From assembly GCF_003014535.1 (NCBI RefSeq), contig NZ_PYGD01000007.1, positions 124,001 through 188,000 on the forward strand: a DNA stretch of 64,000 bases. Reading direction: 5' to 3'. The notes below the pieces were generated by a model that had not been told where the DNA came from, ran no database searches, and saw only the letters and a program-made list of their open reading frames with translations. The position numbers and the translations under genes are program-made. The DNA is from Taibaiella chishuiensis. GTDB taxonomy: Bacteria > Bacteroidota > Bacteroidia > Chitinophagales > Chitinophagaceae. Positions 37,422-52,158 of the stretch are shown here, in pieces (positions within the stretch are counted from its first letter, which is position 1; the number at the start of each line of letters is the position of its first letter).

Positions 37422-37454
37422 CAAAATTAATAAGGCCCGGCGGCTAAAAATGCC
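37422..37454 (-). promoter_or_regulatory. Shared 33-bp upstream element (copy 1)
   Basis: On minus: GGCATTTTTAGCC, then TAATTTTG placed 14 bp after the TTAG half. It lies 21 bp before the ATG at 37400. The same bases form part of a 13-bp hairpin (37432-37444 with 37452-37464) that could also end the upstream minus-strand gene. Confidence 0.55.
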
Positions 37455-37484
37455 ACCGGGCCTTATGCCTGCAATGAAGGCCTA

Positions 37485-37919
37485 TTACATGATCAGCACA
37501 ATGATATTACCGGCTGCATTCTGTTGCCAGGTTGCCGTAACCGCAGCATTGCCATTACAGGGAATAGCGGTAGCCGTAGTGGTCATAGAAGGCGAAACGG
37601 GGGAACTGGCGTCGCCGCAGGCCAGGCCGATGCCGGGCAAGGGAACCAGTACGCCGCCTTGGATATGGGTAAAATAGGCCGTTGCGGGCAACCCCGCCAG
37701 GCCGGGCAATACGGACGGCGATGCATAAATAGTCGTAGCATTAGCCGGTATGGTAATGTCCTGCGATTCGAAGTACATACTGGGTCCTGACGGAATGCCG
37801 TATCCGCGGAAGCTGAATGCACAGCTACAGCCGGTAAGGTTGACCAGGGTAATCGAGTTGGCCTGCGCGGCCAGTAATGCGCCTACGGAACACATCAGGG
37901 TAAGCAGTGCTTTTTTCAT
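37485..37919 (-). CDS. Small secreted protein of the NxTxC...CNxGN family (member 2)
   Basis: A 144-aa protein with signal peptide MKKALLTLMCSVGALLAAQA and mature start NSITLVNLTGCSCAFSFRGY. The end is IPCNGNAAVTATWQQNAAGN then IIVLIM. It is very close to the neighbour at 38068-38499 in both the signal peptide and the NLTGCSCAFSFRGYG motif, so the two are recent duplicates. A degenerate copy of the shared upstream element (TAAAGATC on plus at 37948-37955) lies 29 bp before the start. Export by Sec is clear; fate after the inner membrane (periplasm, surface, medium) is not visible. Confidence 0.82.
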   Translation of the reverse strand: MKKALLTLMCSVGALLAAQANSITLVNLTGCSCAFSFRGYGIPSGPSMYFESQDITIPANATTIYASPSVLPGLAGLPATAYFTHIQGGVLVPLPGIGLACGDASSPVSPSMTTTATAIPCNGNAAVTATWQQNAAGNIIVLIM

Positions 37920-38067
37920 AAAACGGTTTTGTGGTTTGTTGAAAATTTAAAGATCATAGTACTGGCGACATACATACTCCTGAATACAGTGACCGGAACA
38001 CAGGCCTGATGCCCGGTGTACAATACGAGACTATATACCACCGGGATCTGTTACGCATTAAAACAGG

Positions 38068-38499
38068 TTACATAATCAGTACCACCACATTGCCTGCAGC
38101 ATTCTGTTGCCAGCTTGCAGTAACCGAAGAGTTGTTGTTACAGGGAATAGAAGTGGCTGTAGTGGTCATGGAGGTACCCACGCCGGATGCCACGCTACCA
38201 CAGGCCAGGCCTACGCCCGGTACCGTAGTCAGCACACCGCCTTTGATATAGGTAAATACTGCGGTAGCAGGCAGGGAACCCATACCCGGTATTGCAGAGG
38301 GTGCAGCATAAAAGGTATTGCCCGGTGGTACGGTGGTGTTTGGCGATTCGTAATAAGTACCGGGCAGCGCAGGGTCGCCGTAGCCGCGGAAGCTGAATGC
38401 ACAGCTACAGCCGGTAAGGTTAACAACAGTGAGGGTATTGGCCTGGGCGGCAAGGATCGTTCCAACGGAACACAGGAGGGTAAGCAGCGTTTTTTTCAT
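38068..38499 (-). CDS. Small secreted protein of the NxTxC...CNxGN family (member 3)
   Basis: A 143-aa paralogue of the 37485 gene: signal peptide MKKTLLTLLCSVGTILAAQA, mature start NTLTVVNLTGCSCAFSFRGY, end IPCNNNSSVTASWQQNAAGN then VVVLIM. Four cysteines in the mature part (CSC, AC, PC) could form disulfides. The ATG at 38499 is chosen because the longer frame (to 38577) runs through the shared upstream element. Function unknown. Confidence 0.82.
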   Translation of the reverse strand: MKKTLLTLLCSVGTILAAQANTLTVVNLTGCSCAFSFRGYGDPALPGTYYESPNTTVPPGNTFYAAPSAIPGMGSLPATAVFTYIKGGVLTTVPGVGLACGSVASGVGTSMTTTATSIPCNNNSSVTASWQQNAAGNVVVLIM

Positions 38500-38527
38500 A
38501 AAAACGGTTTTGTGATTTGGTGAAAGC

Positions 38528-38560
38528 CAAAGATCTATAGCACCGGTGGCAAAAAATGCC
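38528..38560 (-). promoter_or_regulatory. Shared 33-bp upstream element (copy 2)
   Basis: On minus: GGCATTTTTTGCC, 14 bp between TTTG and GATCTTTG, ending 28 bp before the ATG at 38499. It matches the elements at 51381 and 52126 almost base for base in its first 13 bp. Confidence 0.6.
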
Positions 38561-38678
38561 CCTGGAAAAATTTGCATATGATCGCTTAATTTTTAAAACA
38601 GAGAGCCGGGCAGCATTTGAAAATACTAACTTGCAGGCCGGGTAACGAACGATCTATAAACACCCCATTTCTGAATAT

Positions 38679-38885
38679 ATGAACAAACAACTAACCGTAG
38701 AGCAGCTCAAAACTGCACAGCAAAAGATGCAGGAAGACATCCGCACCGCCATTAACGAGTTTATCGGTTATACCGGCGCCGTACCTAAGATCGCGATCGA
38801 TATATCGGCCATCAGGACGGTAGAAAGCAGCAAACCGGTAGGCCATACCATCGATGTAAAAACCAAAGTGATCGTAAAAGGATAA
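38679..38885 (+). CDS. 68-aa protein of unknown function
   Basis: A small soluble protein starting MNKQLTVEQLKTAQQKMQED, with one amphipathic helix then strands (GAVPKIAIDISAIRTVESS, GHTIDVKTKVIVKG). No signal peptide or membrane segment. An imperfect -7 element (TAACTTGC) lies about 45 bp upstream. It is followed by a strong bidirectional terminator. Codon use and clean ends support a real gene, but the family is not recognised. Confidence 0.6.
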   Translation: MNKQLTVEQLKTAQQKMQEDIRTAINEFIGYTGAVPKIAIDISAIRTVESSKPVGHTIDVKTKVIVKG

Positions 38886-38908
38886 GCAGCATCAGCGATT
38901 CCCAAAAG

Positions 38909-38945
38909 AGACAGGGCCCGGCGTGTTATACTCCGGGCCCTGTCT
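38909..38945. terminator. Strong terminator between convergent small genes
   Basis: Perfect 13-bp stem (38909-38921 with 38933-38945) and 11-nt loop, between the stop at 38885 (plus) and the stop at 38951 (minus). Confidence 0.8.
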
Positions 38946-38950
38946 TCCTG

Positions 38951-39172
38951 CTACAGGTAGTAGCTGCTTCTTCTCGGGCTGCGCTCCCGGAATACCGGCG
39001 TTTTCTTCTTTTCTACTGAGCTGGCCAGAAAGGTCAGCTTCTTCTGCTCCAGCGTTTCCGCAACAATAGTGCTGCATCCTACTTCCCGGTCTTTGATTTC
39101 TTCCACTACCCAGGTAATGGTATAGTTGGACTTGTGAAAAACCAGGTCGCCTACCTTGAGTTGTTCTTCCAT
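38951..39172 (-). CDS. 73-aa protein, YodC/DUF2158-like
   Basis: Starts MEEQLKVGDLVFHKSNYTIT and continues WVVEEIKDREVGCSTIVAET. The opening L-K-x-G-D-x-V-x-x-x-S-x-x-x-x-x-x-V pattern is that of small YodC/DUF2158-like proteins. The C-terminal tail is basic (EKKKTPVFRERSPRRSS). Start at 39172 is preferred to the in-frame ATG at 39193 because the protein then begins at the conserved part. Function unknown. Confidence 0.65.
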   Translation of the reverse strand: MEEQLKVGDLVFHKSNYTITWVVEEIKDREVGCSTIVAETLEQKKLTFLASSVEKKKTPVFRERSPRRSSYYL

Positions 39173-39415
39173 AGCATCAGATTTATAATGCAAAGGTAGC
39201 GGCGTACTACGCCATTACACGGCCTACCGCGCTGCTCCGAAAGAAATTTTCCGTAAATAATAAATACATATTTTATTTAATTCAAAACATAAAGAACGCT
39301 AAAAATAACATACTTTAATTTTTTTGAATAATTTAAAACAATCTATATTTACAACAGTATTTCAAATTAAAATACGATACATTTTTTCACCAAACCAACC
39401 AAATCCAACAAAAAA

Positions 39416-39841
39416 ATGAAAAAGGTAAAACTGATGTTTGCCCTGCTGGCACTGGGCTTCGGGCAACAGGCGATGGCCCAGACCTGTAACTGTACCGCCA
39501 ACAATCTCTACGCCGTGGAGTATCCCAGTACGGGCAATACTCAAACCGGGAGCGCGAACTACAATTTCAGCCTCCCGGTATCGGCCATCACCAGCGGCAA
39601 CAATATCCATCTCTGGTTTCCCAAGTCGGCTTGTTATCCTACTGCTGCCAATCCCTGCTATGGCCCTTATAAAGCAACGATCGGCGCCAATACGATCAAC
39701 TCGGTGGGCGGTACGACTGTAAACCAGCATATCCAGATACCGGCATCGTATCTGAAACCCGGGGTAAATACCATCGTGGTAAAAGGTTATTGCGGTAACA
39801 CCGTATGTAACCTGAGTTCAACGATAATTACCGTGCAATAA
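39416..39841 (+). CDS. Small secreted Cys-containing protein of unknown function
   Basis: A 141-aa protein with signal peptide MKKVKLMFALLALGFGQQAM (cleavage near AQTC). The mature part is Asn/Thr-rich and beta-type, opening TCNCTANNLYAVEYPSTGN. Later parts are GNNIHLWFPKSACYP and LKPGVNTIVVKGYCGNTVC. Eight cysteines suggest disulfides outside the cytoplasm. It does not share the NxTxC...CNxGN layout. It is preceded by about 180 bp of very AT-rich DNA and closed by the hairpin at 39875-39899. Confidence 0.75.
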   Translation: MKKVKLMFALLALGFGQQAMAQTCNCTANNLYAVEYPSTGNTQTGSANYNFSLPVSAITSGNNIHLWFPKSACYPTAANPCYGPYKATIGANTINSVGGTTVNQHIQIPASYLKPGVNTIVVKGYCGNTVCNLSSTIITVQ

Positions 39842-39874
39842 ACAAGATCTAAAAAAACCGTATGGCAATACCGG

Positions 39875-39899
39875 CAACACTCCCCCCGAGGGAGTGTTG
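39875..39899 (+). terminator. Terminator after the 39416 gene
   Basis: Perfect 10-bp stem (39875-39884 with 39890-39899), 5-nt loop, followed by TTGTTT. Confidence 0.75.
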
Positions 39900-40048
39900 T
39901 TGTTTGAGACCATGCTCATTCGTCATAAAAACGGGAAAGCGCATTATAAGCACGTTTATGAACCTGGGCTTCACGACCATGAACTGGCACTAACGGGATT
40001 ACAAAAGGGTGCCTAAATTGCTGCAGCATCCTTCTAAAAACGCAGGCA

Positions 40049-40276
40049 ATGAAAAAGAAACAAAGAACACTACCCCGGCTCAGGCTGAAGAAAGCAATCA
40101 TCAGCGACCTTAACCTGGTAACCGGCGGCAATCCCGGCGACAATAACTTACAGATGGGTACGGGTGTGGGGCCCTGCCTGCCTATAAGTACCCAGAAAAG
40201 CGAATGCATGTCTTTAATCCTGATCTGTTATTCTGCTTTCTGCGGTCCGAAGCCAACATTTACCCATTGCTATTAA
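40049..40276 (+). CDS. GG-leader peptide precursor with Cys-rich core (precursor 1)
   Basis: A 75-aa ORF. The N-terminal 27 residues are a Bacteroidota natural-product leader: basic start MKKKQRTLPRLRLKKAIISD, then LNLVTGG. The core after Gly-Gly is about 48 residues with 5 Cys and many Ser/Thr (opens NPGDNNLQMGTGVGPC, ends FCGPKPTFTHCY). The K-L-x-L-K-K-x-x-I-x-x-L-n pattern is that of the class I lanthipeptide / GG-Bacteroidales precursors that I know. No LanB, LanC, radical SAM or peptidase-ABC gene is in the window, so modification is unproven; disulfides are an alternative. It is followed by its own terminator. Confidence 0.8.
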   Translation: MKKKQRTLPRLRLKKAIISDLNLVTGGNPGDNNLQMGTGVGPCLPISTQKSECMSLILICYSAFCGPKPTFTHCY

Positions 40277-40302
40277 CCTGTTTTTATGTGTGCGGTGAAT
40301 GG

Positions 40303-40325
40303 AGCCACCCTGTAATGGGGTGGCT
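40303..40325 (+). terminator. Terminator after precursor 1
   Basis: 8-bp stem (40303-40310 with 40318-40325), 7-nt loop, then a T-run TTTTTC. Confidence 0.8.
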
Positions 40326-40383
40326 TTTTCTATTGCGCTGCCTGCTACCCGGGCAATAGGCCATAAGGCGGGGCTTACGCCGG

Positions 40384-40536
40384 TTATGGTTTATAAGGCG
40401 GGGGGCATAGATACGTTTCCCTCGGATCCAGAAGGTCGGCAGGAATATCGATGGGTCCTATAGCGTTTAGTTCCGGCGCCAGGCAAAGGATCGCGATCTT
40501 GGTAATTTTTAATTTACCGGGATTGTGCTTCTTCAT
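40384..40536 (-). CDS. 50-aa leader-like peptide on the minus strand
   Basis: A short frame read on minus from ATG 40534-40536 to TAA 40384-40386. It opens MKKHNPGKLKITKIAILCLA, close in style to the K-L-x-L-K-K-x-x-I leaders of the neighbouring precursors, but it has no Gly-Gly. It continues PELNAIGPIDIPADLLDP and ends RETYLCPPPYKP, with two Cys. It may be another natural-product precursor type with a different cleavage site. There is no terminator or promoter that I can assign with confidence. The call rests on leader similarity and context. Confidence 0.5.
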   Translation of the reverse strand: MKKHNPGKLKITKIAILCLAPELNAIGPIDIPADLLDPRETYLCPPPYKP

Positions 40537-40984
40537 AAAGAATAGTTTTTATCAGTATCAGGTAAAACAAAAAGGACATCAGTTGGGAATAACCCTTTAC
40601 CGGCATCAGGCCGGGTAAGCGATGACGCGGACAACCTGTCCGCCGCAGGTTACGGTTCATTCAAGCCGACCGGGGAACACGTTGTTTTTATGGGGCACAA
40701 ACAAATGGAACCCTGCTTTGCAATAAAATTAAATAATCGATATACAACCACCAAAAAAGACTTATTAAAAAATAAAAGCTACGCATCTATTTTTCAGCAA
40801 AATAATTACGCATACTATTTTCTGCGCACAGGAGCATACTTCGGGCTTACATACATACCGGCTGTAAGCCTGCTTTAAAGCCAAGCGAAATAACAGCAAT
40901 AAAAACCATATATCTAATTAACAGTTAAATAATTAAATATTATTTTTATCAACTTAAATTTATCATGAAACAAAATAGTTTATC
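40537..40984. other. 448-bp AT-rich region without a supported gene
   Basis: GC drops sharply from about 40720 to 40980. The plus frame 40690-40878 is open but reads as low-complexity Asn/Tyr/Lys-rich sequence without a ribosome site and is not called. Two copies of TTTATCATGAAA lie at the right end (around 40959 and 40979), the second at the start of a 24-aa ORF. Confidence 0.5.
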
Positions 40985-41059
40985 ATGAAAAGGAAGATCA
41001 TAAAGTTTCAAAAAACTAAGCTTGCCCAGGCAACGATCCCCGGCATGGTAAACAAATAA
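40985..41059 (+). CDS. 24-aa leader-like ORF without a core
   Basis: The frame starts MKRKIIKFQKTKLAQATIPG and stops four residues later. The basic, K-x-K-L-x-x-A-x-I pattern resembles the leaders at 40049, 41868 and 42787 but it ends where Gly-Gly would stand. A hairpin with a T-run follows at 41083-41111. It may be a decayed precursor or chance; a frameshift that would restore a longer core is not obvious. Confidence 0.35.
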   Translation: MKRKIIKFQKTKLAQATIPGMVNK

Positions 41060-41082
41060 AGTCCCTACCCCTATCCCAGTAC

Positions 41083-41110
41083 AAAGCCATACACTACCAT
41101 GTGTGGCTTT
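41083..41110 (+). terminator. Hairpin after the 24-aa leader-like ORF
   Basis: AAAGCC...ACAC pairs with GTGT...GGCTTT with a 2-nt bulge, followed by TTTTGTG. Confidence 0.5.
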
Positions 41111-41181
41111 TGTGTGTTTATAAAGGCGCTTAGCCGCTCTCCTGTAACGAGCAATATGAAGTCCGGTCTGTCGCAAAAAAA

Positions 41182-41209
41182 GGAGCTGATATCGTTTGAT
41201 ATCAGCTCC
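41182..41209 (-). terminator. Terminator after the 41237 gene
   Basis: Perfect 12-bp stem (41182-41193 with 41198-41209), GTTT loop, and a T-run on the minus strand, 28 bp past the stop. Confidence 0.85.
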
Positions 41210-41236
41210 CGTCGGTATAAGATGGTAATAAATGGT

Positions 41237-41671
41237 TTAATGAGCGATAACCGCATTACCAATAATTACGCCCAGGCCGAGATCGGTGGACAAATCCCAT
41301 TGGGTACCCGGGCCACCACCGCCCATATGTCCGGGCCAGCCGGTAGGCCCGCCCCAGCAGAAAAGCGGCACGCCCACGGTAGCACCGAGATAATCGATGC
41401 CGATGATCCGGTAGTCGGTAACGTTTAACGGGATAAGCGGCATACCAGGACCGCCGAGCATACCCACAGGTGTGATGCCGGGGCCCAGGGTTACCGGGAA
41501 CATTACAGTAGGCCCGCCACAGGGTATGGGCTCCATGATAAAGGTGAGGGTAACCGGTGAAGGGGGCCCGGGAGGATAACCGTTCCTGTTGTCTACATTA
41601 ACCATAACGGCTTGCGCATAGGAAATACAGCTTCCGATCAGCAGCAGCAGGAATAACATGCTTCTTTTCAT
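41237..41671 (-). CDS. Small secreted Gly/Pro-rich protein of unknown function
   Basis: A 144-aa protein with signal peptide MKRSMLFLLLLIGSCISYAQ. The mature part begins AVMVNVDNRNGYPPGPPSPV and is rich in Gly and Pro (GPGITPVGMLGGPGMPLIP; WGGPTGWPGHMGGGGPG), with two Cys. It shares only its size and secretion with the NxTxC family. A perfect -7 element (TATATTTG on minus, 41709-41716) and an inverted repeat sit 38-63 bp before its start. Function unknown. Confidence 0.72.
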   Translation of the reverse strand: MKRSMLFLLLLIGSCISYAQAVMVNVDNRNGYPPGPPSPVTLTFIMEPIPCGGPTVMFPVTLGPGITPVGMLGGPGMPLIPLNVTDYRIIGIDYLGATVGVPLFCWGGPTGWPGHMGGGGPGTQWDLSTDLGLGVIIGNAVIAH

Positions 41672-41704
41672 AGGATCAATTTTTAAGTGAGTAAATGGTT
41701 TGAT

Positions 41705-41734
41705 GTTTCAAATATATAAATATTTATTTGAAAC
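41705..41734 (-). promoter_or_regulatory. Promoter overlapped by a perfect inverted repeat
   Basis: GTTTCAAATA (41705-41714) and TATTTGAAAC (41725-41734) are perfect 10-bp arms with a 10-bp spacer. The minus-strand -7 element TATATTTG (41709-41716) overlaps the arm nearer the gene at 41237-41671. The arrangement fits a repressor operator; the regulator is unknown. Confidence 0.5.
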
Positions 41735-41811
41735 AAATTCAACAAATAGCATCAAAATATAAAAAATAAATTGCTACATAATAATAGGAATTACGACTAA
41801 TAATTTCCGAT

Positions 41812-41844
41812 GGCATTTTATGCCCCCCGATACCGCGACATTTA
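41812..41844 (+). promoter_or_regulatory. Shared 33-bp upstream element (copy 3), before precursor 2
   Basis: GGCATTTTATGCC, 14 bp between TATG and GACATTTA, ending 23 bp before the ATG at 41868. Same length and layout as the elements before the secreted-protein genes, with single-base changes in each half. Confidence 0.55.
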
Positions 41845-41867
41845 CAGTTCATTTAAAAGACATTTTT

Positions 41868-42047
41868 ATGAAAAGGAAAAAACTTGCCCGAAAATTGTCT
41901 TTACAGAAAAAGACGCTGGCAGAACTTGTTGTAAGGGAACAAAACGCGATCCGCGGCGGGATGACGGCCGGAACCACTTGCTGTGGCTCTACCCCCGAAA
42001 TCAAAAACTGTCATACCCTGGCTTCCTGCTGGCCGGAGATCTGCTAA
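41868..42047 (+). CDS. GG-leader peptide precursor with Cys-rich core (precursor 2)
   Basis: A 59-aa ORF. The leader at 1-31 is basic then amphipathic (MKRKKLARKLSLQKKTLAEL) and ends AIRGG. The 28-residue core opens MTAGTTCCGSTPEIKNC and ends LASCWPEIC: 5 Cys, 5 Thr and 2 Ser, well suited to lanthionine or disulfide rings. ATG at 41868 is chosen over 41820 because the longer frame starts inside the shared upstream element. It is the only precursor that carries that element. No maturation enzyme is nearby. Confidence 0.82.
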   Translation: MKRKKLARKLSLQKKTLAELVVREQNAIRGGMTAGTTCCGSTPEIKNCHTLASCWPEIC

Positions 42048-42173
42048 TCCCGATAAGGGCCATAAGTAAACAAGATGGCCCTTATCCCCTTCCTCCTCTT
42101 GTGCCGTAAACAAGACGATCCAAATCCCACCAACAACAAACCACTATTTCTAATTTACAAACAACAAAAAAAC

Positions 42174-42581
42174 ATGAAAAAAATCGCAAGTATCGCTGCT
42201 ATCACAGCAGGCCTTTTCTTCAGCCAGGCCAGTGCATTCGGCCAACAGCTGTTTTATCCCAGCCTGGCCCTAACCTGTACTTCCTCGCCGGTGTTCCAGG
42301 TAGATGTGTATGGCAATTATAACAAGAGCACCACACCAGGCTTTTCCAGCGGCATCGCCCTGCATTATTATAGCCCTGCCAGTACAATATTTTCCCCGCT
42401 TTCCGGTCCTGCCGGGGAAACCTACCAGCTCGTGGAACTGACTATTGGCATAGGAGGCAGCTCTGATGCGACTTTCAGCGGTACCGAACTTTTTGGCACC
42501 GCAAAACCATTAGGTACTTCAGGCCGTACGGCATATGTATACCTGGCCAACCCGGGTAAGTACGAGTTCTATATCTATTAA
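42174..42581 (+). CDS. Small secreted protein of unknown function
   Basis: A 135-aa protein with signal peptide MKKIASIAAITAGLFFSQAS (cleavage near AFGQQ). The mature part is Ser/Gly/Tyr-rich and beta-type (LTCTSSPVFQVDVYGNYNKS, GETYQLVELTIGIGGSSDA, GRTAYVYLANPGKYEFYIY). One Cys. It lies between precursor genes 2 and 3. The longer open frame to 42075 would add a non-signal extension and is not used. Closed by the hairpin 42606-42637. Confidence 0.72.
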   Translation: MKKIASIAAITAGLFFSQASAFGQQLFYPSLALTCTSSPVFQVDVYGNYNKSTTPGFSSGIALHYYSPASTIFSPLSGPAGETYQLVELTIGIGGSSDATFSGTELFGTAKPLGTSGRTAYVYLANPGKYEFYIY

Positions 42582-42605
42582 CACGCATAACAAGGCCTGA
42601 ACCTG

Positions 42606-42637
42606 CAAAGCCACCGGTAAAAGTACCGATGGCTTTG
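42606..42637 (+). terminator. Terminator after the 42174 gene
   Basis: 14-bp stem with one mismatch (42606-42619 with 42624-42637) and 4-nt loop; weak T-tract. Confidence 0.7.
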
Positions 42638-42786
42638 TGTTGCCGGGCACGATCCATCTTGCCCCGGCAAGACTACTTAAAAAATACACCCGCTTTTATG
42701 CGTAAAAAATGCGCCTTCCTAAAAAAACCGTCCATAACCGGTCCGTCATTGCTTTATTTTGTCGCTCACATATCAAACATATAATT

Positions 42787-42978
42787 ATGAAAAAGAAAAC
42801 TTCAGCGAGAAAATTATCATTAAAGAAATTAACGATCAGCGAGCTTAATGCTACCCAGGGAGGACGCCTTTTAGAAACCGGGACGATAAAAATATCCAAC
42901 TACCCGACACAATGCCCTGCTGACAGCTTCTGCGCCAGCTACCTGGTACAATGCTTCCCTTCCAAGGAGTGCAACTAG
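42787..42978 (+). CDS. GG-leader peptide precursor with Cys-rich core (precursor 3)
   Basis: A 63-aa ORF. The leader at 1-26 is MKKKTSARKLSLKKLTISEL then NATQGG, the best match in the window to the K-L-x-L-K-K-x-T-I-x-x-L-N...GG pattern. The 37-residue core opens RLLETGTIKISNYPTQC and ends QCFPSKECN, with 4 Cys and several Ser/Thr. Start at 42787 rather than 42709 because the leader begins there. It is followed by a long terminator. As for the others, no cognate modification or export genes are seen. Confidence 0.83.
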   Translation: MKKKTSARKLSLKKLTISELNATQGGRLLETGTIKISNYPTQCPADSFCASYLVQCFPSKECN

Positions 42979-43011
42979 ACCGGCACAGGTGTCCGCATCA
43001 ATTCCTTATTA

Positions 43012-43051
43012 AAAAAGCTAAAGCCATCCTTCGCGATGGCTTTAGCTTTTT
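43012..43051 (+). terminator. Long terminator after precursor 3
   Basis: Perfect 17-bp stem (43012-43028 with 43035-43051), 6-nt loop, ending in a T-run. Confidence 0.9.
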
Positions 43052-43080
43052 ACAGGGTATGAGCGAACTGCAGGAGCTGG

Positions 43081-43760
43081 AAGGTCATAGCGGGATGCTA
43101 TGACCAGTATGTTTTTTTATAGTCTCGCGGAGATCTCGCGGAGACGCGGCGTTTACGGCGAGCAAACAGAAGGTGGTAGCGAGACGCGACGACCAGACTA
43201 GGGCTGTATAGTTCCCAGCATGATGTCAATCTATTCGCTGCGTCGCCGTGTCGCTACGAGAAAAAACATGTGTATTCTACTGTTGCAAATAGTAGTAGCT
43301 ACCGGGCCAGGTAAATGAACAGAAGGTCGTAGCGGATGCTATGACCAGTATGTTTTTGGGGGTCTCGCGGAGACGCTGCGTTTACGGCGAGTAAACAGAA
43401 GGTGGTAGCGAGACGCGACGACCAGACTAGGGTTGTATAGTTCCCAGCATGATGTCAATCTATTCGCTGCGTCGCCGTGTCGCTGCGAGAAAAACACGCA
43501 TTGCGCTGTGGCAATAACAGTAGCTACCGGGCCAGGTAAACGAGCAGAAGGTCGTAGCGGGATGCTATGACCAGTATGTTTTTGGGGTCTCGCGGAGACA
43601 CGGCGTTAGCGGCGAGCAAACAGAAGGTCGTAGCGAGACGCGACGACCAGACTAGGGTTGTATAGTTCCCAGTATGATGTCAATCTATTCGCTGCGCCGC
43701 CGTGTCGCTGCGAGAAAAAACACACGTTATGCCGTGGCAATAACAGGAGCTATTTGAAAC
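43081..43760 (+). repeat. Three tandem units of a 225-242-bp non-coding repeat
   Basis: Units begin at 43081, 43323 and 43548 with AAGGTC(A/G)TAGCGG. Each holds a hairpin GGTC(A/G)TAGC...GCTATGACC, a GC-rich TCTCGCGGAGA stretch, a second hairpin-like GTAGCGAGACGCGACGACC, the sentence-like constant TATAGTTCCCAG, and the dispersed-repeat core (TTCGCTGCGTCGCCGTGTCG...). No coding frame is supported. The array occupies most of the 863-bp gap between precursor 3 and tRNA-His. Confidence 0.85.
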
Positions 43761-43841
43761 GATTTCTGAAACGTTTTTCAGATCACGGCGAAAAATATGG
43801 GCAAGAAAAAAGCGGAAACTGTTGAAAAACAATTTCCGCTT

Positions 43842-43919
<78 letters not shown>

Positions 43920-43991
43920 GTGTTTGTTGGGAGTGCAAAGGTAATAATAAGTGACCGAATAAACCAAACATTTTTTAGGTTTCTTTCTCCT

Positions 43992-43999: not shown

Positions 44000-44033
44000 A
44001 ATCACTAAAATCACCCTCCAATTTAATTGATTA

Positions 44034-45427: not shown

Positions 45428-46060
45428 ATGAAAATTCTTAAACCCACCATTGCAGCGGCGATGCTGTTGTGCACCTCGCTCTTCACCCATAAAACACAGG
45501 CCCAGGGCCTTATCCTTGGCATTAAAGTCGGCGCGACATTTGATAAAACACAGGGACAGAATCTCGACGGCAAATTCAGCGGCTATTTCCTAGGCGGCGC
45601 TTATGCCGGTATCCGGTTTACCGCGATCAAAGTACAGGCCGAGCTGCTGTTTTCCCAAAGCAAAGTAACTACCGGCGATAACTTTAAAAATGCTTTCGGC
45701 AATTACGTAAGCGGCACTGCCTCCAGCATTAAAGACGGTACCTTTAAAATGAACGAACTCTCTATCCCGGTATTGGTTGGTTTTAACCTGCTGCCTAAAC
45801 TGCTCTGGATACAGGCAGGTCCGCAGTACACCGGCGTAGTATCGATCAATGATGTAAACGGTTTTGTAAAAGAAACAAAAGATGTATTTAAAAGCGGCTA
45901 CCTCTCCGGTGTAGTTGGTGCTGAACTCCAGTTGCCATTCAGCCTGAATGTGGGCGCGCGGTACATCTTCGGCATCTCCGACCGTAACAATACCAATGTA
46001 AACGAATCATGGCGCACCAGCCACTTCCAGTTACATGTGGGCTACAGCTTCATGAAATAA
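45428..46060 (+). CDS. Small outer-membrane beta-barrel protein (PorT-like family)
   Basis: A 210-aa protein with a signal peptide (MKILKPTIAAAMLLCTSLFT, cleavage near TQAQG) and eight-stranded barrel character: LILGIKVGATFDKTQGQNLD, GYFLGGAYAGIRFTAIKVQA, ELLFSQSKVTTGDN, GAELQLPFSLNVGARYIFG, ending HFQLHVGYSFMK. This is the Bacteroidota OMP_b-brl_2 / PorT-like group. TTTG and TATTTTTC lie at 45377-45400 upstream as a possible promoter. Closed by the hairpin 46081-46109. Confidence 0.82.
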   Translation: MKILKPTIAAAMLLCTSLFTHKTQAQGLILGIKVGATFDKTQGQNLDGKFSGYFLGGAYAGIRFTAIKVQAELLFSQSKVTTGDNFKNAFGNYVSGTASSIKDGTFKMNELSIPVLVGFNLLPKLLWIQAGPQYTGVVSINDVNGFVKETKDVFKSGYLSGVVGAELQLPFSLNVGARYIFGISDRNNTNVNESWRTSHFQLHVGYSFMK

Positions 46061-46080
46061 ATACCCCCTTATAGAAAATT

Positions 46081-46109
46081 AAACGGGACCGATCATTTCG
46101 GTCCCGTTT
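46081..46109. terminator. Terminator between convergent genes
   Basis: Perfect 12-bp stem (46081-46092 with 46098-46109), 5-nt loop, then GTTTTT on plus. Confidence 0.85.
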
Positions 46110-46136
46110 GTTTTTATCTTATCGTTCGTTCTGGTA

Positions 46137-47264
46137 TCAGATCGATTCTTTTACTTTTTCGATCACGGCATCTACTTCTGCACGGGTATTGTGCCGGCTG
46201 AAGGAAAAGCGCACCGGTACCACGTTAGGATCGCTGTTGATCGCATTGATCACGTGACTGCCGGCATTGGCCCCGCTGCTGCAGGCGCTGCCACCCGATA
46301 CGCAGATGCCTGCCATATCGAGGTTGAACAGGATCATTTCGGATTTTTCTGATTTCGGGAACGCTACATTCAGTACGGTGTACAGGCTGCGCCCTTTATA
46401 ATCGCCATTGAACCGTACGCCCGGCACCTGCTGTTGCAGTTGCTGTGCCATATACTGTTTCAGCTCTTCTATGTATTGACTGTCTTCTGCATAACGTTCC
46501 ATAGCCAGTTCCAGCGCACGGGCAAAACCTACGATACCGTACAGGTTCTCGGTACCGGCACGCATATTACGTTCCTGGCCACCGCCGTTAAGCAGGGGCT
46601 TAATGGTTACGTTTTCGTTTACATACAAAATGCCCACGCCTTTAGGGCCATGAAACTTATGACCGGCGCCGGTAATAAAATGCACCGGGGTATCGCGCAG
46701 GCTTATGGGATAATGACCTACGGTCTGCACGGTATCGCAATGGAAAATAGCGTCGAATTCTTTACACAGGTTGCCCACGGCGTCGATCGGCAACAGGTTA
46801 CCGATTTCGTTATTGGCATGCATCAGGCTTACCAGGCAACGCTCTTCCGATGTTTCCAGCAGGCGGCGCAGGTCTTCGAGGTCTACATGTCCTTTTTCGT
46901 CCAGCTTTACAAAGCTCAGTTTAATACCGTGCCTGTGGTTCCAGAGCTCCACGGTATGCAGGGTGGCATGGTGTTCGATACGCGAACTGATAATATGCTT
47001 ACAGCCCAGGTCGTATACTGCGGCGGTAATAGCGGTATTGCTGCTTTCTGTACCACCGGAGGTAAAGAAAATTTCACCGGGATTGGCATTCAACAGTTTC
47101 GCCACAGACTTTCGCGCCTGTTCGATCGCCATCTTCGATTCCCGCCCATAAGAGTAGATCGATGAAGGGTTGCCGAACTTATCGGTAAAATAAGGCATCA
47201 TAGCCTCGAGGACTATAGGATCCATGGCAGTAGTCGCTGCGTTGTCGAAATAAATGCGTTCCAT
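46137..47264 (-). CDS. Cysteine desulfurase (NifS/IscS family)
   Basis: A 375-aa PLP enzyme that removes sulfur from cysteine for Fe-S clusters and thiolation. It shows MERIYFDNAATTAMDPIVLE, FTSGGTESSNTAI, the PLP lysine in ITGAGHKFHGPKGVG, and the catalytic loop SGGSACSSGANAGSHV with the persulfide Cys. The ATG at 47264 is the family-typical start; the frame extends to 47294. No iscU or suf genes are beside it. A TAACTTTG element lies 75 bp upstream. Confidence 0.95.
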   Translation of the reverse strand: MERIYFDNAATTAMDPIVLEAMMPYFTDKFGNPSSIYSYGRESKMAIEQARKSVAKLLNANPGEIFFTSGGTESSNTAITAAVYDLGCKHIISSRIEHHATLHTVELWNHRHGIKLSFVKLDEKGHVDLEDLRRLLETSEERCLVSLMHANNEIGNLLPIDAVGNLCKEFDAIFHCDTVQTVGHYPISLRDTPVHFITGAGHKFHGPKGVGILYVNENVTIKPLLNGGGQERNMRAGTENLYGIVGFARALELAMERYAEDSQYIEELKQYMAQQLQQQVPGVRFNGDYKGRSLYTVLNVAFPKSEKSEMILFNLDMAGICVSGGSACSSGANAGSHVINAINSDPNVVPVRFSFSRHNTRAEVDAVIEKVKESI

Positions 47265-47338
47265 AAACCGGGAGTATGACTGCAGTTCATACATCTTTTA
47301 CTGCAGCAATGGCTGTTATTTTATTAAAAAATCAGGCG

Positions 47339-47346
47339 CAAAGTTA
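47339..47346 (-). promoter_or_regulatory. -7 promoter element for the cysteine desulfurase gene
   Basis: On minus TAACTTTG matches TAnnTTTG exactly, between the desulfurase and the pseudouridine synthase genes. Confidence 0.45.
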
Positions 47347-47389
47347 TAAAAATTTACAAGTAATCATAGGGTATGCATACAGATAAAAC

Positions 47390-47998
47390 CTATTGCCAGT
47401 TATCGATGTGCAGCAGGCGGAAAAAATCGGTTTCTTCCAGTTCCCTGACAGCGCCCGGGGCCAAGCCACCCAGTTCGATATCTTCGATCGCCACGCGGAT
47501 CAGTCGCTTGCAGCGGTGTCCTACCGTAGTCACCATTTTGCGCACCTGGTGAAACTTACCTTCGGTAAGGGTGATCTGCAGCCAGGTCTCGGGTACCTTC
47601 CAGGTATGCGAAGGGTCGAGCGGCGGGAGGTTAGGCGGCGGTGCAACGATCTCCACATCGCAGGGCAAGGTGGTATAGTCGTCGTGTCCTTTGCCCGGCA
47701 GGGTAATACCGGTACGCAGCAGGTGCAATGCCGGCGCTTCTACCAGGCCTTTGACCAGTACCAGGTAAATACGTTTATGCGGCACCTGGCCCTGGAACAG
47801 GAGCCGGGTTACCTTTTTATTGGTGGTGAGTAATAACAGGCCTTCCGAATGGTTATCGAGCCGGCCTATAGCATGCGTTCCCTCGGGAAAGTCGAATTTA
47901 AGGTGCCCCAGAAGACGCACCTTATCCGGGCTTACGAACTGGGAGACCATGCGGTAGGGTTTGTTTATGGCGAAATAACGATGGCTGGTTGCGGACAT
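47390..47998 (-). CDS. Ribosomal pseudouridine synthase (RluE-like)
   Basis: A 202-aa RsuA/RluE-type enzyme that isomerises uridine in rRNA. It has FAINKPYRMVSQFV at the start, the catalytic motif HAIGRLDNHSEGLLLLT with the essential Asp, and LTEGKFHQVRKMVTTVGH near the end. There is no S4 domain, as in RluE. It is 34 bp from the ATG to a terminator hairpin of the upstream gene, so it is probably transcribed alone. Confidence 0.93.
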   Translation of the reverse strand: MSATSHRYFAINKPYRMVSQFVSPDKVRLLGHLKFDFPEGTHAIGRLDNHSEGLLLLTTNKKVTRLLFQGQVPHKRIYLVLVKGLVEAPALHLLRTGITLPGKGHDDYTTLPCDVEIVAPPPNLPPLDPSHTWKVPETWLQITLTEGKFHQVRKMVTTVGHRCKRLIRVAIEDIELGGLAPGAVRELEETDFFRLLHIDNWQ

Positions 47999-48018
47999 AA
48001 GCGGGCATGAATAGAAAA

Positions 48019-48048
48019 CATCCCCGGCATGATCGTATGCCGGGGATG
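48019..48048 (-). terminator. Terminator after the L,D-transpeptidase gene
   Basis: Perfect 12-bp stem (48019-48030 with 48037-48048), 6-nt loop, and TTTTCT on the minus strand, 33 bp past the stop at 48081. Confidence 0.85.
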
Positions 48049-48080
48049 CAAATGTAGCAGAATCTTATATAACAAGGGAC

Positions 48081-49742
48081 TTAGAACCCGTAAACAGGAC
48101 GCATGGCAATATCACGGCCATAAACGTCGTCGAGGTAACGAAGCCCGGTACCCGTACTGTCCGGCGCTACGGTAAGGTAAACGATATACACGGGCAGCGG
48201 CCGTTTTATCGGCTCCAGTTTGGTCTTGCGGGTTTCTATAACCGAGTCGATACGCCCCCGGCCGTAGCCGCGGTCGGACAACAGGACTTCCGCAAAATCT
48301 TTAGGGTTCTGTACGCGTACACAACCCGAGCTCAGCGCCCGCGAACGCAGGCCAAAGTCGCCCCGGTGCGGTGTATCGTGCAGGTAGATATCCCATTTGT
48401 TAGGCAGGTTAAATTTGATCTCGCCCAGGGAGTTATGGGCTCCGGGAGGTTGCCGGTAAGAAAAACGTTTATAATTTTCGCCGTTGACCATTTCCGTTAC
48501 ATCACGTCCTTTGGCATCGAAGGCGCGCAGGCCTTTGCGGGCCAGGTAACCGGCGCCGGCACGGCTTACACCCGGACCAACATCGTTTTTAAGAATGGTA
48601 GGCGGTACGCCCCAGGGCGGGTTGAACACCACGTTGGCCATAGGCGCCCAGAGCGTAGGGGTTTGTCTTGCTTTTTTACCGACCACTACACGGCTATGCC
48701 ATTTCAGGTCGTTGTCTCGGTAATAGTCTACTTCCATCAGGGGTATGGTTACCCATACGTGCTCTGCGCCTATTTCGCGGGGCAGTGCCCTGAGGCGGTC
48801 CATATTCATTTGCAGCGACTGAACATAGGCATCCGGATCGGTTCTCAGCTTTTTATAGGTCGCACTATCGTTCTTGCCGGTTATGCGCAACTGATGGTAA
48901 TACTGGTAAGTGGCAATCGCATTGGCGGTAGCGCCGCTATCGCCTGTAGCCATCATGATACCAGGCAGTTCTTTACCGATTACCGCCTGCAGGCTACTGT
49001 CCTGCACGCCAAGCCTTACGCCGGCTTTGAGCCGCAGGTAGAGGCTGTCCTGCTTCAGTTGCTGCCATTGTTCCATAGCGGCAATCATCTGGTTATAGCT
49101 TTTGAGCAGGGGCCTGAAGGTATCGAGCGCCGGCAGCTGCTGTTTGTTTTTACTGGCCTCTACCAGGTAGCGTGCCCCATTGAAGGCCGTATCGTTGGCG
49201 GCAAACCATTGATCGTCTGCTTTACGGATATCCTCTTTGCCCATCAGCAGATCGCGGGCTGCAGTCAGGTAAGCGGCCGTAAGGGCCTTATCCCATCGTA
49301 CAACGCTATCCACGGGCAGTGCTCCCTTTTGATCCCGGCCGGCTTCGGCCAGTATCCTGCGGATATCCGCAAGGTGGTACCGCGTGGTATCGAGCCCTTC
49401 GCGGCTTAAGGCGGCAAGCGCCTGGACAAGGCCAGCCGTGCTGCTCTTGATACCTTTGCTTTCAAACCAGATCGGCTCATTGCCCGACAGCCGGTAAGCG
49501 TACTTTACATTAAGATCAACATCGCGTAAAAGTTGTTTCCTGAACAGGGAATCGGAGGGATCGATCTGCGCCGTAACGGGCGCCATTGCAGTTTTAAAGT
49601 CTTCGATAGAAACGGGATCATCTTCGAAGAAAGTGGCCAGTCCGCCTTTTTTACCGGTCCCGGAGGAGCAGGACAACAGACAAAGGGACAGGCCCATGGT
49701 GACCACCAGGAGGTGGACATGCGGTTTTCGTCGGGGTTTCAT
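48081..49742 (-). CDS. L,D-transpeptidase lipoprotein (YcbB-like)
   Basis: A 553-aa envelope enzyme. A lipoprotein signal (LLVVTMGLSLCLLSCSS) is followed by a scaffold region and then the YkuD catalytic domain at about 330-500. The signature runs HDTPHRGDFGLRSRALSSG followed by CVRVQNP, with nucleophile Cys474 and the preceding His. The large N-terminal scaffold and length match YcbB/LdtD-type enzymes that form 3-3 cross-links in peptidoglycan. A C-terminal tail of about 50 residues follows the domain. Confidence 0.92.
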   Translation of the reverse strand: MKPRRKPHVHLLVVTMGLSLCLLSCSSGTGKKGGLATFFEDDPVSIEDFKTAMAPVTAQIDPSDSLFRKQLLRDVDLNVKYAYRLSGNEPIWFESKGIKSSTAGLVQALAALSREGLDTTRYHLADIRRILAEAGRDQKGALPVDSVVRWDKALTAAYLTAARDLLMGKEDIRKADDQWFAANDTAFNGARYLVEASKNKQQLPALDTFRPLLKSYNQMIAAMEQWQQLKQDSLYLRLKAGVRLGVQDSSLQAVIGKELPGIMMATGDSGATANAIATYQYYHQLRITGKNDSATYKKLRTDPDAYVQSLQMNMDRLRALPREIGAEHVWVTIPLMEVDYYRDNDLKWHSRVVVGKKARQTPTLWAPMANVVFNPPWGVPPTILKNDVGPGVSRAGAGYLARKGLRAFDAKGRDVTEMVNGENYKRFSYRQPPGAHNSLGEIKFNLPNKWDIYLHDTPHRGDFGLRSRALSSGCVRVQNPKDFAEVLLSDRGYGRGRIDSVIETRKTKLEPIKRPLPVYIVYLTVAPDSTGTGLRYLDDVYGRDIAMRPVYGF

Positions 49743-49876
49743 AACTTGTTTTACAGGGTTACTGGGTTAGGTAGTGCAAATATCAAGCCATTTTTAATCA
49801 TAACCCGTTTTAAATTGCCAAAAAAAAGAAAATGCCTGAAATCAGGGAGCGCAACACAAACGAAGCAGAATCCGCT

Positions 49877-49884
49877 TAGCTTTG
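49877..49884 (+). promoter_or_regulatory. -7 promoter element for the DUF3347 lipoprotein gene
   Basis: TAGCTTTG matches TAnnTTTG, 11 bp before the first ATG (49896), implying a very short leader and perhaps favouring the second ATG at 49899. Confidence 0.45.
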
Positions 49885-49895
49885 CACAAAACCGT

Positions 49896-50495
49896 ATGAT
49901 GAGCAGCAGCAAGCGCCTGATAACCGCCTTACTTTATACCTTTCCCGTTTGGGCTATGGTAGCCTGCCGCAATACGGCTGATGCACCGGCACGTAACAGG
50001 CAAGGGTCGAAGGCGGCAATAAGCCTGCTGGATACTACGGCAACAGCCGGCATGCAGCAATTGCTCTATCATTACTACGACCTTAAAGATGCGCTTGCAG
50101 CAACCCGTAGCACAGCTGCCCGAGGCGCGGCGGAGGCCATGCAACACCAGGTCAGCGCCCTGCGTGTACAACTGGAAGCCGCAGACAGCAATGCCGCTTA
50201 CCTGCACGCATTACAAAGCCACCTGGACACTATAAGTGGCAACCTGGATCACATACTGACCCTGAAGGATGAAAGCTGCGAGCAGCAACGCGTTTATTTC
50301 AAACCTATCTCCGAAGCGCTATATGATGCGCTTAAACTGATCAGGATACAGCACCTTACCGTCTACCATACCTTTTGCCCGATGGCCTTTCGCGAAAAAG
50401 GCGCCTTCTGGCTAAGCGAATTCCCGGAAATACGCAACCCCTATTTCGGCGCCAAGATGATCGAATGCGGCGAAGTGATCGATACCCTCCGGTAA
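49896..50495 (+). CDS. DUF3347-type lipoprotein
   Basis: A 199-aa protein with a lipoprotein signal (LLYTFPVWAMVACRNTADA). The mature domain opens LLYHYYDLKDALAATRSTAA and ends with HTFCPMAFREKGAFWLSEFP, EIRNPYFGAKMIECGEV, the DUF3347 signature. This domain is often found with copper or heavy-metal efflux proteins in Bacteroidota, and the conserved Cys/Met pair (CPM...KMIECG) may bind metal. No efflux genes are adjacent. Confidence 0.85.
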   Translation: MMSSSKRLITALLYTFPVWAMVACRNTADAPARNRQGSKAAISLLDTTATAGMQQLLYHYYDLKDALAATRSTAARGAAEAMQHQVSALRVQLEAADSNAAYLHALQSHLDTISGNLDHILTLKDESCEQQRVYFKPISEALYDALKLIRIQHLTVYHTFCPMAFREKGAFWLSEFPEIRNPYFGAKMIECGEVIDTLR

Positions 50496-50694
50496 GGCAT
50501 AACACCAACACACAAGCTTAGCTGCCCCACCTGTTTACCGGGGCACGCTGCAGGCATAAATTGCCCTGTTTCCATACACTGACCACCGGCGCTTCCCGGA
50601 TCAGCAGGCGCTTCATGCCCGCTTTTGCAGGCTGCCCAGGCATGCCCGCAAAAAACAATCTTTTTCCGGAATATTTTACAGAAAGGCCGCCGGG

Positions 50695-50727
50695 GGACTT
50701 TTTTGCACTTATCACTTGCGAACTTTG
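50695..50727 (+). promoter_or_regulatory. Shared 33-bp upstream element (copy 4)
   Basis: GGACTTTTTTGCA (one imperfect arm), 14 bp between TTTG (50702-50705) and GAACTTTG (50720-50727), 59 bp before the ATG at 50787. Confidence 0.55.
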
Positions 50728-50786
50728 TACCCGGTAAAACAACGAACCAAATCCATCCATTTCTTTTATCCATTCAAACATTGCTT

Positions 50787-51233
50787 ATGAAAAAAACCAG
50801 CATCTTCCTGGCCCTCTTCCTGTTGGCCGGTCTTGGTAAATCCTTTGCGGGTTACCTCAAAATCATCAATATGACGCCTTGTAGCTTCCAATTCTATAGT
50901 GGCTACGGTACCATTACCGATCCTTCTACCACACCGCCTACCGTTTATGGCTTCTCCTTCGGCCCGATGACGGTGGGTAGTATGGCAACCGTTAATTATG
51001 CCAACCCGACGCTGATACCCGGCTTTAGCGGCCCCTCTACCCCGCTTGCTACCACCGGTTGCGCCGAAGTGGTTAAAGTAAACGGTCCCGGCACAGGCTT
51101 CCCGATCGGCAAAACGCCGCCCATCAACAGCTATAGCAGTACCAACAACCCGTCCTGCAATGGCGGCAACAACTATACCATGGGCTGGAACCCCAGCAGC
51201 AGTGGCTGTGACGCCGTGATCCTGATTTTCTGA
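50787..51233 (+). CDS. Small secreted protein of the NxTxC...CNxGN family (member 4)
   Basis: A 148-aa protein with signal peptide MKKTSIFLALFLLAGLGKSF (cleavage near AGYLK). The mature part opens KIINMTPCSFQFYSGYG and has GFPIGKTPPINSYSSTNNPS then CNGGNNYTMGWNPSS, ending CDAVILIF. Four mature Cys. First of four tandem paralogues on the plus strand. The start at 50787 removes 54 residues of non-signal open frame. Function unknown; secretion by Sec is clear. Confidence 0.85.
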   Translation: MKKTSIFLALFLLAGLGKSFAGYLKIINMTPCSFQFYSGYGTITDPSTTPPTVYGFSFGPMTVGSMATVNYANPTLIPGFSGPSTPLATTGCAEVVKVNGPGTGFPIGKTPPINSYSSTNNPSCNGGNNYTMGWNPSSSGCDAVILIF

Positions 51234-51256
51234 TCCGGTACCTGATATTATCTCAA

Positions 51257-51291
51257 CCGGCAGGCGGCTCCAATATGGGGCCGCCTGCCGG
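51257..51291 (+). terminator. Terminator after member 4
   Basis: Perfect 12-bp GC-rich stem (51257-51268 with 51280-51291) then CTTTTC. Confidence 0.8.
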
Positions 51292-51380
51292 CTTTTCAGG
51301 GCACTGCAGCTATGGCCGCGACCAGGCCAGCCCATACACATAGCCATCTCCCATCCGGGAAAGAGCGATAAGGCACGGGG

Positions 51381-51413
51381 GCATTTTTTGCCCCCGACTA
51401 TTAGGATATTTGC
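51381..51413 (+). promoter_or_regulatory. Shared 33-bp upstream element (copy 5)
   Basis: GGCATTTTTTGCC, 14 bp between TTTG (51388-51391) and GATATTTG (51406-51413), 115 bp before the ATG at 51529. The flanking G and C runs extend the inverted repeat to a hairpin-capable stem. Confidence 0.6.
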
Positions 51414-51528
51414 TTTTTTATCAGCCGTATATACATACACAGGTTCAATATTAAACCGCGGCGCCTGTAGGTGTTTATCCAGCTGTATAAATGATCATTT
51501 ATTCACCCATACACAAAACAAAACTGTT

Positions 51529-51981
51529 ATGAAAAAGACCAGTTTATGCCTTGCCCTGTTCCTGCTGGCGGCCTGCAGCAGCACATTTGCCGGGTTCCTC
51601 AACATCGTTAACTTAACACCGTGCACCTTCGAGTTTTACAGTGGCTACGGCAGTATCCCCAACCCTGCATCGCCGGGCACACCTTATACCTTCGGGTTCA
51701 ACGGCATAATTGTACCGCAGGGTACTTCCTACTATGCAGATCCCAGCTACCTGCCGCAGCTTTCAACCGACGCGCCCCAGAACCTATGGTCCACCGGCTG
51801 CGTAGTGTCGTCCAAGGTGCTCGGTCCGGGCCCCGGGTACAATGCTTTCTTTATCAGCAAGAATGCCCCCAACACCTTTTTCGTAAGCACCAATACCCCA
51901 ACCTGTAATGGTGGTAACAACTTCACGATGAACTGGAACCAATCGGGCAATAACTGTGACGCCGTAATCCTAATTTTCTGA
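51529..51981 (+). CDS. Small secreted protein of the NxTxC...CNxGN family (member 5)
   Basis: A 150-aa protein with signal peptide MKKTSLCLALFLLAACSSTF. LLAACS could also be read as a lipobox, unlike in the sisters, so this member may be a lipoprotein. The mature part has LNIVNLTPCTFEFYSGYGS, a variable middle (YFADPSYLPQLSTD-like), and TPTCNGGNNFTMNWNQSGNN, ending CDAVILIF. It follows member 4 by 295 bp with its own promoter element, and it shares a duplicated upstream region with member 6. Confidence 0.85.
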   Translation: MKKTSLCLALFLLAACSSTFAGFLNIVNLTPCTFEFYSGYGSIPNPASPGTPYTFGFNGIIVPQGTSYYADPSYLPQLSTDAPQNLWSTGCVVSSKVLGPGPGYNAFFISKNAPNTFFVSTNTPTCNGGNNFTMNWNQSGNNCDAVILIF

Positions 51982-52004
51982 TCTGGCATTTGATATTATC
52001 TCAA

Positions 52005-52038
52005 CCGACAGGCGGCTCCGGGTGGAGCCGCCTGTCGG
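52005..52038 (+). terminator. Terminator after member 5
   Basis: Perfect 15-bp stem (52005-52019 with 52024-52038) with GGGT loop; related in sequence to the terminator after member 4. Confidence 0.8.
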
Positions 52039-52125
52039 CTTTCCGAGCGCTGCAGCTAAGGCCGCAGTCAGGCCAGCCCATATATATCCCCATCTCCCAT
52101 CCAGGAAGCGGCGATAAGATACAAG

Positions 52126-52158
52126 GGCATTTTTTGCCCCCGGCTATCAGGATATTTG
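52126..52158 (+). promoter_or_regulatory. Shared 33-bp upstream element (copy 6)
   Basis: GGCATTTTTTGCC, 14 bp between TTTG (52133-52136) and GATATTTG (52151-52158), 110 bp before the ATG at 52269. Nearly identical to copy 5 over the whole leader. Confidence 0.6.

Follow-up and report, generated by a model that had tools for sequence, protein, structure and literature searches.

A 64-kb stretch of the Taibaiella chishuiensis genome (contig NZ_PYGD01000007.1, positions 124,001 to 188,000; hereafter the window) contains five copies of a promoter element, four located upstream of genes for small secreted proteins of the NxTxC family and one upstream of the gene for a class I lanthipeptide precursor, 41868-42047. 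Its two parts are a 21-bp dyad, CRGGGGCATTTTWTGCCCCCG, and a -7 box, GAnCTTTG, the first base of which is found 19 bp past the dyad centre. The original prediction had described six 33-bp layouts of this kind, five assigned to secreted proteins and one to a GG-leader precursor. All six layouts are present, the fifth beginning at 51380 and not at 51381. Five of them are genuine, but the copy at 37422 had to be dropped as a probable terminator hairpin. The sites at 51380 and 52126 are near-duplicates, as had been recognised. The suggested scattered regulon of secreted proteins and modified-peptide precursors has strong support and, at 27 sites, exceeds the size first suggested; nine of the sites precede precursor genes.

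A genome-wide set of 27 sites

The 13-mer GGCATTTTTTGCC occurs seven times in the genome, its reversed control not once. The pattern GGCATTTTTTGCC-N12-GAnnTTTG with up to 3 mismatches identified 21 places in 5.84 Mb (reversed control: 3). Nineteen of these precede genes for small secreted proteins or leader peptides; the two exceptions are the 37422 copy and a place within a short open frame on contig C2. A sequence-only model, R1, was built from the 19 sites and gave 41 matches up to E 10 in the own genome. The best 29 (to E 0.018) represent 27 gene-proximal sites on 10 contigs plus two opposite-strand matches to their dyads. Eighteen sites are found before small secreted proteins and nine before class I lanthipeptide precursors; even the weakest is upstream of a secreted-family member, and five of the six copies first described belong to the set. 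The motif thus exceeds chance frequency genome-wide, all 27 sites standing before genes of the two expected kinds. The remaining 12 R1 matches were judged from their coordinates and ranges, except for three that were read (C1:1605361, C2:500300 and the 37422 copy, C7:161421), and are mostly partial or opposite-strand matches. The opposite-strand match at C11:11927 (E 6.4e-5) faces a divergent gene that has an ordinary TATATTTG box at another distance.

The first pattern had the fixed spacing built in, and the spacing was therefore rechecked in two other ways, the second of which, a palindrome scan of congener upstream regions, is described further below. Searching for the palindrome alone, GGCATWWWWTGCC, returned 31 rows corresponding to 21 distinct places (reversed control: 6 rows). 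Eleven are regulon sites, every one with the -7 box at the same distance. The other ten lie outside the regulon; when each was read, five proved to be in coding sequence, one in a short open frame and four in intergenic regions. Over the whole set, dyad centre and box are 19 bp apart in 27 of 27 sites, counting as a box any match in at least 4 of 5 letters.

The column consensus of the 27 sites reads C-R-G-G-G-G-C-A-T-T-T-T-W-T-G-C-C-C-C-C-G, then eight low-information bases, G-A-n-C-T-T-T-G, three free bases and T-T-C-A-C-Y-A-A-A. The flanks, like the eight bases between dyad and -7 box, carry almost no information. The box begins with G in 23 sites, C in three and T in one, and its remaining letters fit TAnnTTTG. 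No conserved TTTG is found near -33, this position being occupied by the dyad with its T-rich centre. A TTTG-like half had been taken for a conserved unit; it is in fact one arm of the dyad, and the variants TTTTAT, TTAAAT and TTTAAT occur. Among 25 dyad regions GAnnTTTG is present in 13 and TAnnTTTG in none. In 93 upstream regions of the same families that have no dyad, TAnnTTTG is present 15 times (4.8 in shuffles) and GAnnTTTG twice (2.4 in shuffles). A sigma-54 promoter was also considered and rejected: the spacing, read from site alignments, is GG-N8-GC, and the sigma-54 consensus is GG-N10-GC.

The ATG is located 7-17 nt past the matched stretch in 22 sites and 47-105 nt past it in five, where the element is unchanged; it is therefore independent of translation. 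No covariation is found between the dyad arms: their symmetry is about what column composition predicts, the smallest of 12 permutation P values being 0.04. Such absence is what a DNA operator would show and an RNA stem would not. Two-fold symmetry, fixed promoter position and lack of RNA-like covariation are found together here, as expected of an operator for a dimeric protein.

Specificity was examined in the two gene families. The leader model NF038153 has 79 matches in the own genome at E up to 1, spread over many contigs (63 over its cut-off), and a model of the secreted family has 43. Upstream regions of 77 leader matches (the two weakest omitted) and 42 secreted matches (one partial row omitted) were scored. 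The scores split cleanly: nine leaders reach 31.5-53.7 and 16 secreted proteins 29.9-62.0, all others remaining at or below 4.5 except the 37422 copy (12.9). Two further sites, C1:1137255 and C1:1114297, precede secreted proteins outside the family model. Eight of the nine regulon precursors pass the NF038153 cut-off of 22 bits; the ninth, C1:1627208, has 20.2 bits. Ten regulon proteins were compared with Pfam and NCBIfam: all five leaders match NF038153, and the five secreted proteins gave nothing useful, with no Pfam match. The genome has six LanC-like genes.

The exported family, about 140 residues long, is represented by loci L089-L118 and, in the window, by 37020-37400, 37485-37919, 38068-38499 and 50787-53252. 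Among the genomes searched it is nearly confined to this species, with three weak matches in two of three congeners and none in 18 other genomes of the taxonomic family. A modelled member is mostly beta (mean predicted local distance difference test score, pLDDT, 78.7) and has no match in PDB at E 0.001 or better.

Likeness of the sites might merely reflect joint duplication of genes with their promoters. The secreted genes are indeed paralogous, and the 51380 and 52126 sites near-identical. The element nevertheless precedes two unrelated gene families, many paralogues are cleanly devoid of it, the spacer and flanks are nearly information-free and the column counts show no alignable flanks over the 27 sites. 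Duplication as the whole explanation is hardly credible.

R1 found no matches in 58 other genomes (three congeners, 32 from the family and 23 from the order) under stricter filters, with which the own genome still yields 25. The exact form GGCATTWWWTGCC-N12-GAnCTTTG occurs at five isolated places in 84,980 species genomes, a collection that may omit the own genome; the chance estimate is about four. In the open-access literature searched we found no description of the regulon, operator or motif.

The 37422 copy scores 12.9 in comparison with 29.9-62.0 for the 25 scored regulon sites and has TAATTTTG in place of GAnCTTTG. It sits between two tandem genes in a hairpin of 15 bp (-30.6 kcal/mol, z -4.96) and is probably the terminator of gene 37485-37919. 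It remains ambiguous, as the spacing fits and the gene that it precedes is a member of the secreted family.

Gene 37485-37919 (minus strand) is the nearest paralogue of 38068-38499 (67%). In its upstream region, about 37920-37980, GATCTTTA is kept where the -7 box sits, with no recognisable dyad (score -9.2). Perhaps this is a decayed regulon site.

Table 1. Regulon sites and associated genes in the window, and candidate pseudoknot-leader cases in three genomes (G000, own genome; C, contig; L, locus)
Feature	Position	Strand	Remarks
Regulon site, dyad and -7 box GATCTTTG	38528..38560	-	upstream of 38068-38499; E 5.7e-11, score 59.6
Secreted NxTxC-family protein, 143 aa, behind regulon site	38068..38499	-	
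Regulon site, dyad and -7 box GACATTTA	41812..41844	+	upstream of 41868-42047; E 1.6e-8, score 51.0
Class I lanthipeptide precursor, 59 aa, GG leader	41868..42047	+	NF038153, 36.8 bits, cut-off 22
Regulon site, weaker dyad and -7 box GAACTTTG	50695..50727	+	upstream of 50787-51233; E 9.2e-6, score 35.4
Secreted NxTxC-family protein, 148 aa, behind regulon site	50787..51233	+	
Regulon site, dyad and -7 box GATATTTG	51380..51412	+	upstream of 51529-51981; E 1.0e-8, score 49.1
Secreted NxTxC-family protein, 150 aa, behind regulon site	51529..51981	+	
Regulon site, dyad and -7 box GATATTTG	52126..52158	+	upstream of 52269-52724; E 2.2e-8, score 49.4
Secreted NxTxC-family protein, 151 aa, behind regulon site	52269..52724	+	
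Copy excluded from regulon, part of 15-bp hairpin	37422..37454	-	E 0.22, score 12.9
Pseudoknot-leader cases, G000	C1:890817, C1:891237, C1:891653, C1:415184, C1:458565, C4:86491, C16:3000, C16:3370		
Pseudoknot-leader cases, congener loci	L203, L219, L224, L235, L244, L260, L262, L265, L276		

A different dyad in congeners

At E 0.005 the leader model has 95 matches in congener G001, 58 in G003 and none in G002 of the same genus. Upstream regions of 90 of these 153 matches were read, and 150 listed coordinates were used for site-to-gene distances. A different dyad, ACTGCA-N7-TGCAGT, first became evident on reading 30 upstream regions. A palindrome scan free of spacing assumptions detected 13 ACTG(C/A)A dyads in the 90 regions, each with a -7 box 19 bp from its centre, and three other palindromes with a -7-like box at 15, 22 or 25. 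With an iterated matrix, scores of 28.1-50.3 set 25 of the 90 regions apart from the remainder (3.0 or less), and of 119 own regions not one exceeds 11.5. The distance of 19 bp holds in 23 of the 25 sites (at least 4 of 5 box letters). Half-sites and their separation differ between the species (N5 in the own one, N7 in congeners), but not the interval between dyad centre and -7 box. The congener box starts with T in 19 of 25 sites, G in five and C in one, and is mostly TAnnTTTG.

R2, a model of the congener sites, was run on 39 genomes. It found 39 matches in G001 and 24 in G003; G000 and G002 have none, and two other genera together contribute three weak ones. A listed leader gene follows at 6-37 nt in 45 of the 63 congener matches. 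By inspection, the other 18 comprise 11 before further precursor-like genes, one before a secreted protein, one before a LanC gene of G001 (PF05147, E 1.8e-33), three ambiguous cases and two opposite-strand matches of listed dyads. Two dyad-bearing precursor-like genes, L310 (G001:C10:268227) and L326 (G003:C27:521441), code for PSDSDE-type repeats and are microviridin-like; the one tested matches PF12559 with 21.5 bits (cut-off 21). The congener set therefore extends past lanthipeptides.

The two dyads also meet in one homologous pair. The window precursor 41868-42047 matches a G001 peptide over its full length (51%), the cores sharing TTCCG and LASC stretches; the GGGGCA dyad is found at the window gene and the ACTGCA dyad at the G001 gene. 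At G001:C18:338229-338293, a single dyad region between two divergent leader genes is matched on both strands and is possibly an operator shared by them.

A possible pseudoknot leader at other precursor genes

Other leader genes have a conserved element, 18-29 nt ahead of the start, whose sequence fits folding as an H-type pseudoknot. Its first stem of 4 bp encloses UGAACAAY; the second is formed by CCCC/GGGG or variants of these, its 3' strand being preceded by AAAGACA. A crude pattern picks out 17 of 209 upstream regions (8 own, 5 in G001 and 4 in G003; Table 1), none of them among dyad genes. In this small alignment, from whose sequences the structure was itself drawn, the proposed positions pair in 92.4% of cells, and 29 cells show a double change, where shuffles give 10.3 and slid controls 1-4; both stems have compensatory changes. 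By two other measures, pairs with a double change (6; shuffled 4.9) and pair types (11; shuffled 11.8), the alignment does not rise above shuffles. Five loci around the element (four cases and one variant) gave three Rfam matches, all below gathering scores. Judged from sequence, the pseudoknot leader is possibly an unrecorded RNA regulator.

This element bears on the question whether the dyad could itself be a terminator, an RNA hairpin or a recombination site of the invertible-promoter type. Its arms are GC-rich around a T-rich centre, the 37422 copy is a real hairpin, and invertible promoters are known from Bacteroides (excerpts of PMC8748976 and PMC4747536). However, the arms of the 27 sites do not covary, in contrast to the candidate RNA element of other precursor genes with its clear excess of double-change cells. 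The -7 box also keeps its distance even at the five sites with a remote start codon, and the sites are dispersed over 10 contigs. An invertible promoter segment has inverted repeats on its two flanks; the analysis covered the single dyad within each promoter. We consider such a role very improbable; hairpin or terminator as the general meaning is rejected for lack of arm covariation and accepted for the 37422 copy only.

The dyad as a putative operator

The dyad is probably the operator of a dimeric regulator, be it activator or repressor. A dimeric regulator is suggested since the arms differ in congeners at a constant distance of 19 bp from a box that is mostly TAnnTTTG. Its action as an activator together with the primary sigma factor is the reading we favour, with moderate confidence. 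Activation is suggested by a -7 box, GAnCTTTG, that departs from consensus and by the lack of a -33 element; both activation and the use of the primary sigma factor are deduced from promoter anatomy.

According to the favoured reading, a homodimeric DNA-binding protein would bind the dyad. The Flavobacterium -7 box is reported at -12 to -5 (PMC9723704); with such numbering the dyad centre would be near -31, and the dyad would lie over the usual -33 position. RNA polymerase, most likely carrying the primary sigma factor of Bacteroidota, would start a few bases past the -7 box near TTCACC, producing a short leader. The regulator would occupy the usual -33 contact of polymerase and enable the off-consensus box in the own species, and nine precursors and eighteen secreted proteins would rise together. 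The congener counterpart, at the same distance, would control many precursors and one cyclase in G001. Common descent of the two operator systems is likewise predicted.

Promoters of the Bacteroidota primary sigma factor have TTTG at -33 and TAnnTTTG at -7, as described in excerpts of PMC7366714 and PMC9723704. Compared with what these excerpts describe, regulon promoters are similar in the TTTG end of the -7 box and the predicted short leader, and congener boxes are mostly of this type. They differ in that the dyad replaces the -33 element and that most own boxes start with G.

A dedicated sigma factor had originally been argued from the spacing. Such a factor would read the upstream part GGCATTTTWTGCCCC and the -7 part GAnCTTTG at strict spacing. 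The spacing is indeed invariant, and the preference of own dyad promoters for GAnnTTTG, opposed to TAnnTTTG in non-dyad regions, agrees with this explanation. On the contrary, the supposed TTTG half is a palindrome arm, and in congeners a wholly different dyad keeps the same spacing with a mostly TAnnTTTG box. To our knowledge, upstream elements of sigma factors are not palindromic. We regard a dedicated sigma factor as unlikely. A gene resembling those of extracytoplasmic function (ECF) sigma factors was noticed by eye about 3 kb from the C11 sites; nearby ECF-like genes are common in this phylum. The CGT box of Flavobacterium ECF motif SM6, as given in an excerpt of PMC9723704, is absent from the element consensus.

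Alternatively, a repressor bound to the dyad might block polymerase at -33, the genes being released on a signal. The dyad does cover the -33 region, and in congeners the -7 box is near-consensus and the T-rich dyad centre could act as a -33 element. The own off-consensus boxes better fit a promoter dependent on help than one that has to be blocked, and repression appears unlikely.

Several observations weigh against an activator working with the primary sigma factor. G as first base of the box in 23 of 27 own sites could indicate another sigma factor, and the dyad position over -33 suits a repressor equally well. A non-systematic hunt by eye through open reading frames in 18 stretches around own sites (first 62 residues each) revealed no recurrent DNA-binding gene, and the two operator systems are not connected by any counterpart gene. 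The six LanC-like genes of the own genome are not among R1 sites, and the G003 LanC gene corresponding to the dyad-bearing one of G001 has no dyad.

Beside this G001 LanC gene, a small protein has a sub-threshold match to HTH_11 (20.2 bits, cut-off 25). It is located at G001:C19:468607-468903, with relatives at G003:C32:14547-14843 and G000:C1:1022476-1022736; the G001 and G003 copies are 96% alike, the own-genome one 43%. Among 22 genomes searched, one relative is present in G000 and two each in G001 and G003; G002 lacks it, and three other genera contribute a single relative apiece. Around the G000 relative neither site type scored over 12. As a candidate regulator, the protein is a lead only.

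Class I lanthipeptide precursors of Bacteroidetes have LxLxKx5L/GG leaders (PMC7268733, in part), as do all nine regulon precursors. The nine differ from those described there in sharing an operator with a secreted-protein family. For many precursors served by few enzymes, the nearest parallel known to us is the prochlorosins; ProcM-group enzymes are of class II. Excerpts of PMC10783134 describe the prochlorosins of picocyanobacteria as modified by a solitary promiscuous enzyme of this group, a similar case of many precursors and few modifying enzymes. The system described here differs from it in being of class I, with six LanC-like genes, and the feature reported for it is an operator common to its promoters.

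Genomes with dozens of scattered lanthipeptide precursors raise the question of when each is made. The shared operator names a predicted co-expressed set, nine precursors and 18 secreted proteins in the own species; in the two sister species the corresponding sites number 45 at genes of the leader model and 11 at additional precursor-like genes. It also predicts one regulator and supplies the bait to find it. We tentatively propose, with slightly more doubt than conviction, that one regulatory system governs the dispersed lanthipeptide repertoire of this genus. By regulator-operator co-evolution its operator would have been rewritten between species (GGGGCA-N5-TGCCCC in the own one, ACTGCA-N7-TGCAGT in two congeners) at dozens of promoters with the 19 bp kept; the secreted family would have been recruited in the own species, and other precursors would be controlled by the pseudoknot-leader class. 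If true, the precursor repertoire would be split into separately switched sets, one with the dyad and one with the pseudoknot leader. Rewiring of the control point seems to have occurred among these species, and such a change of operator between close relatives at constant promoter distance would represent a natural case of whole-regulon rewiring.

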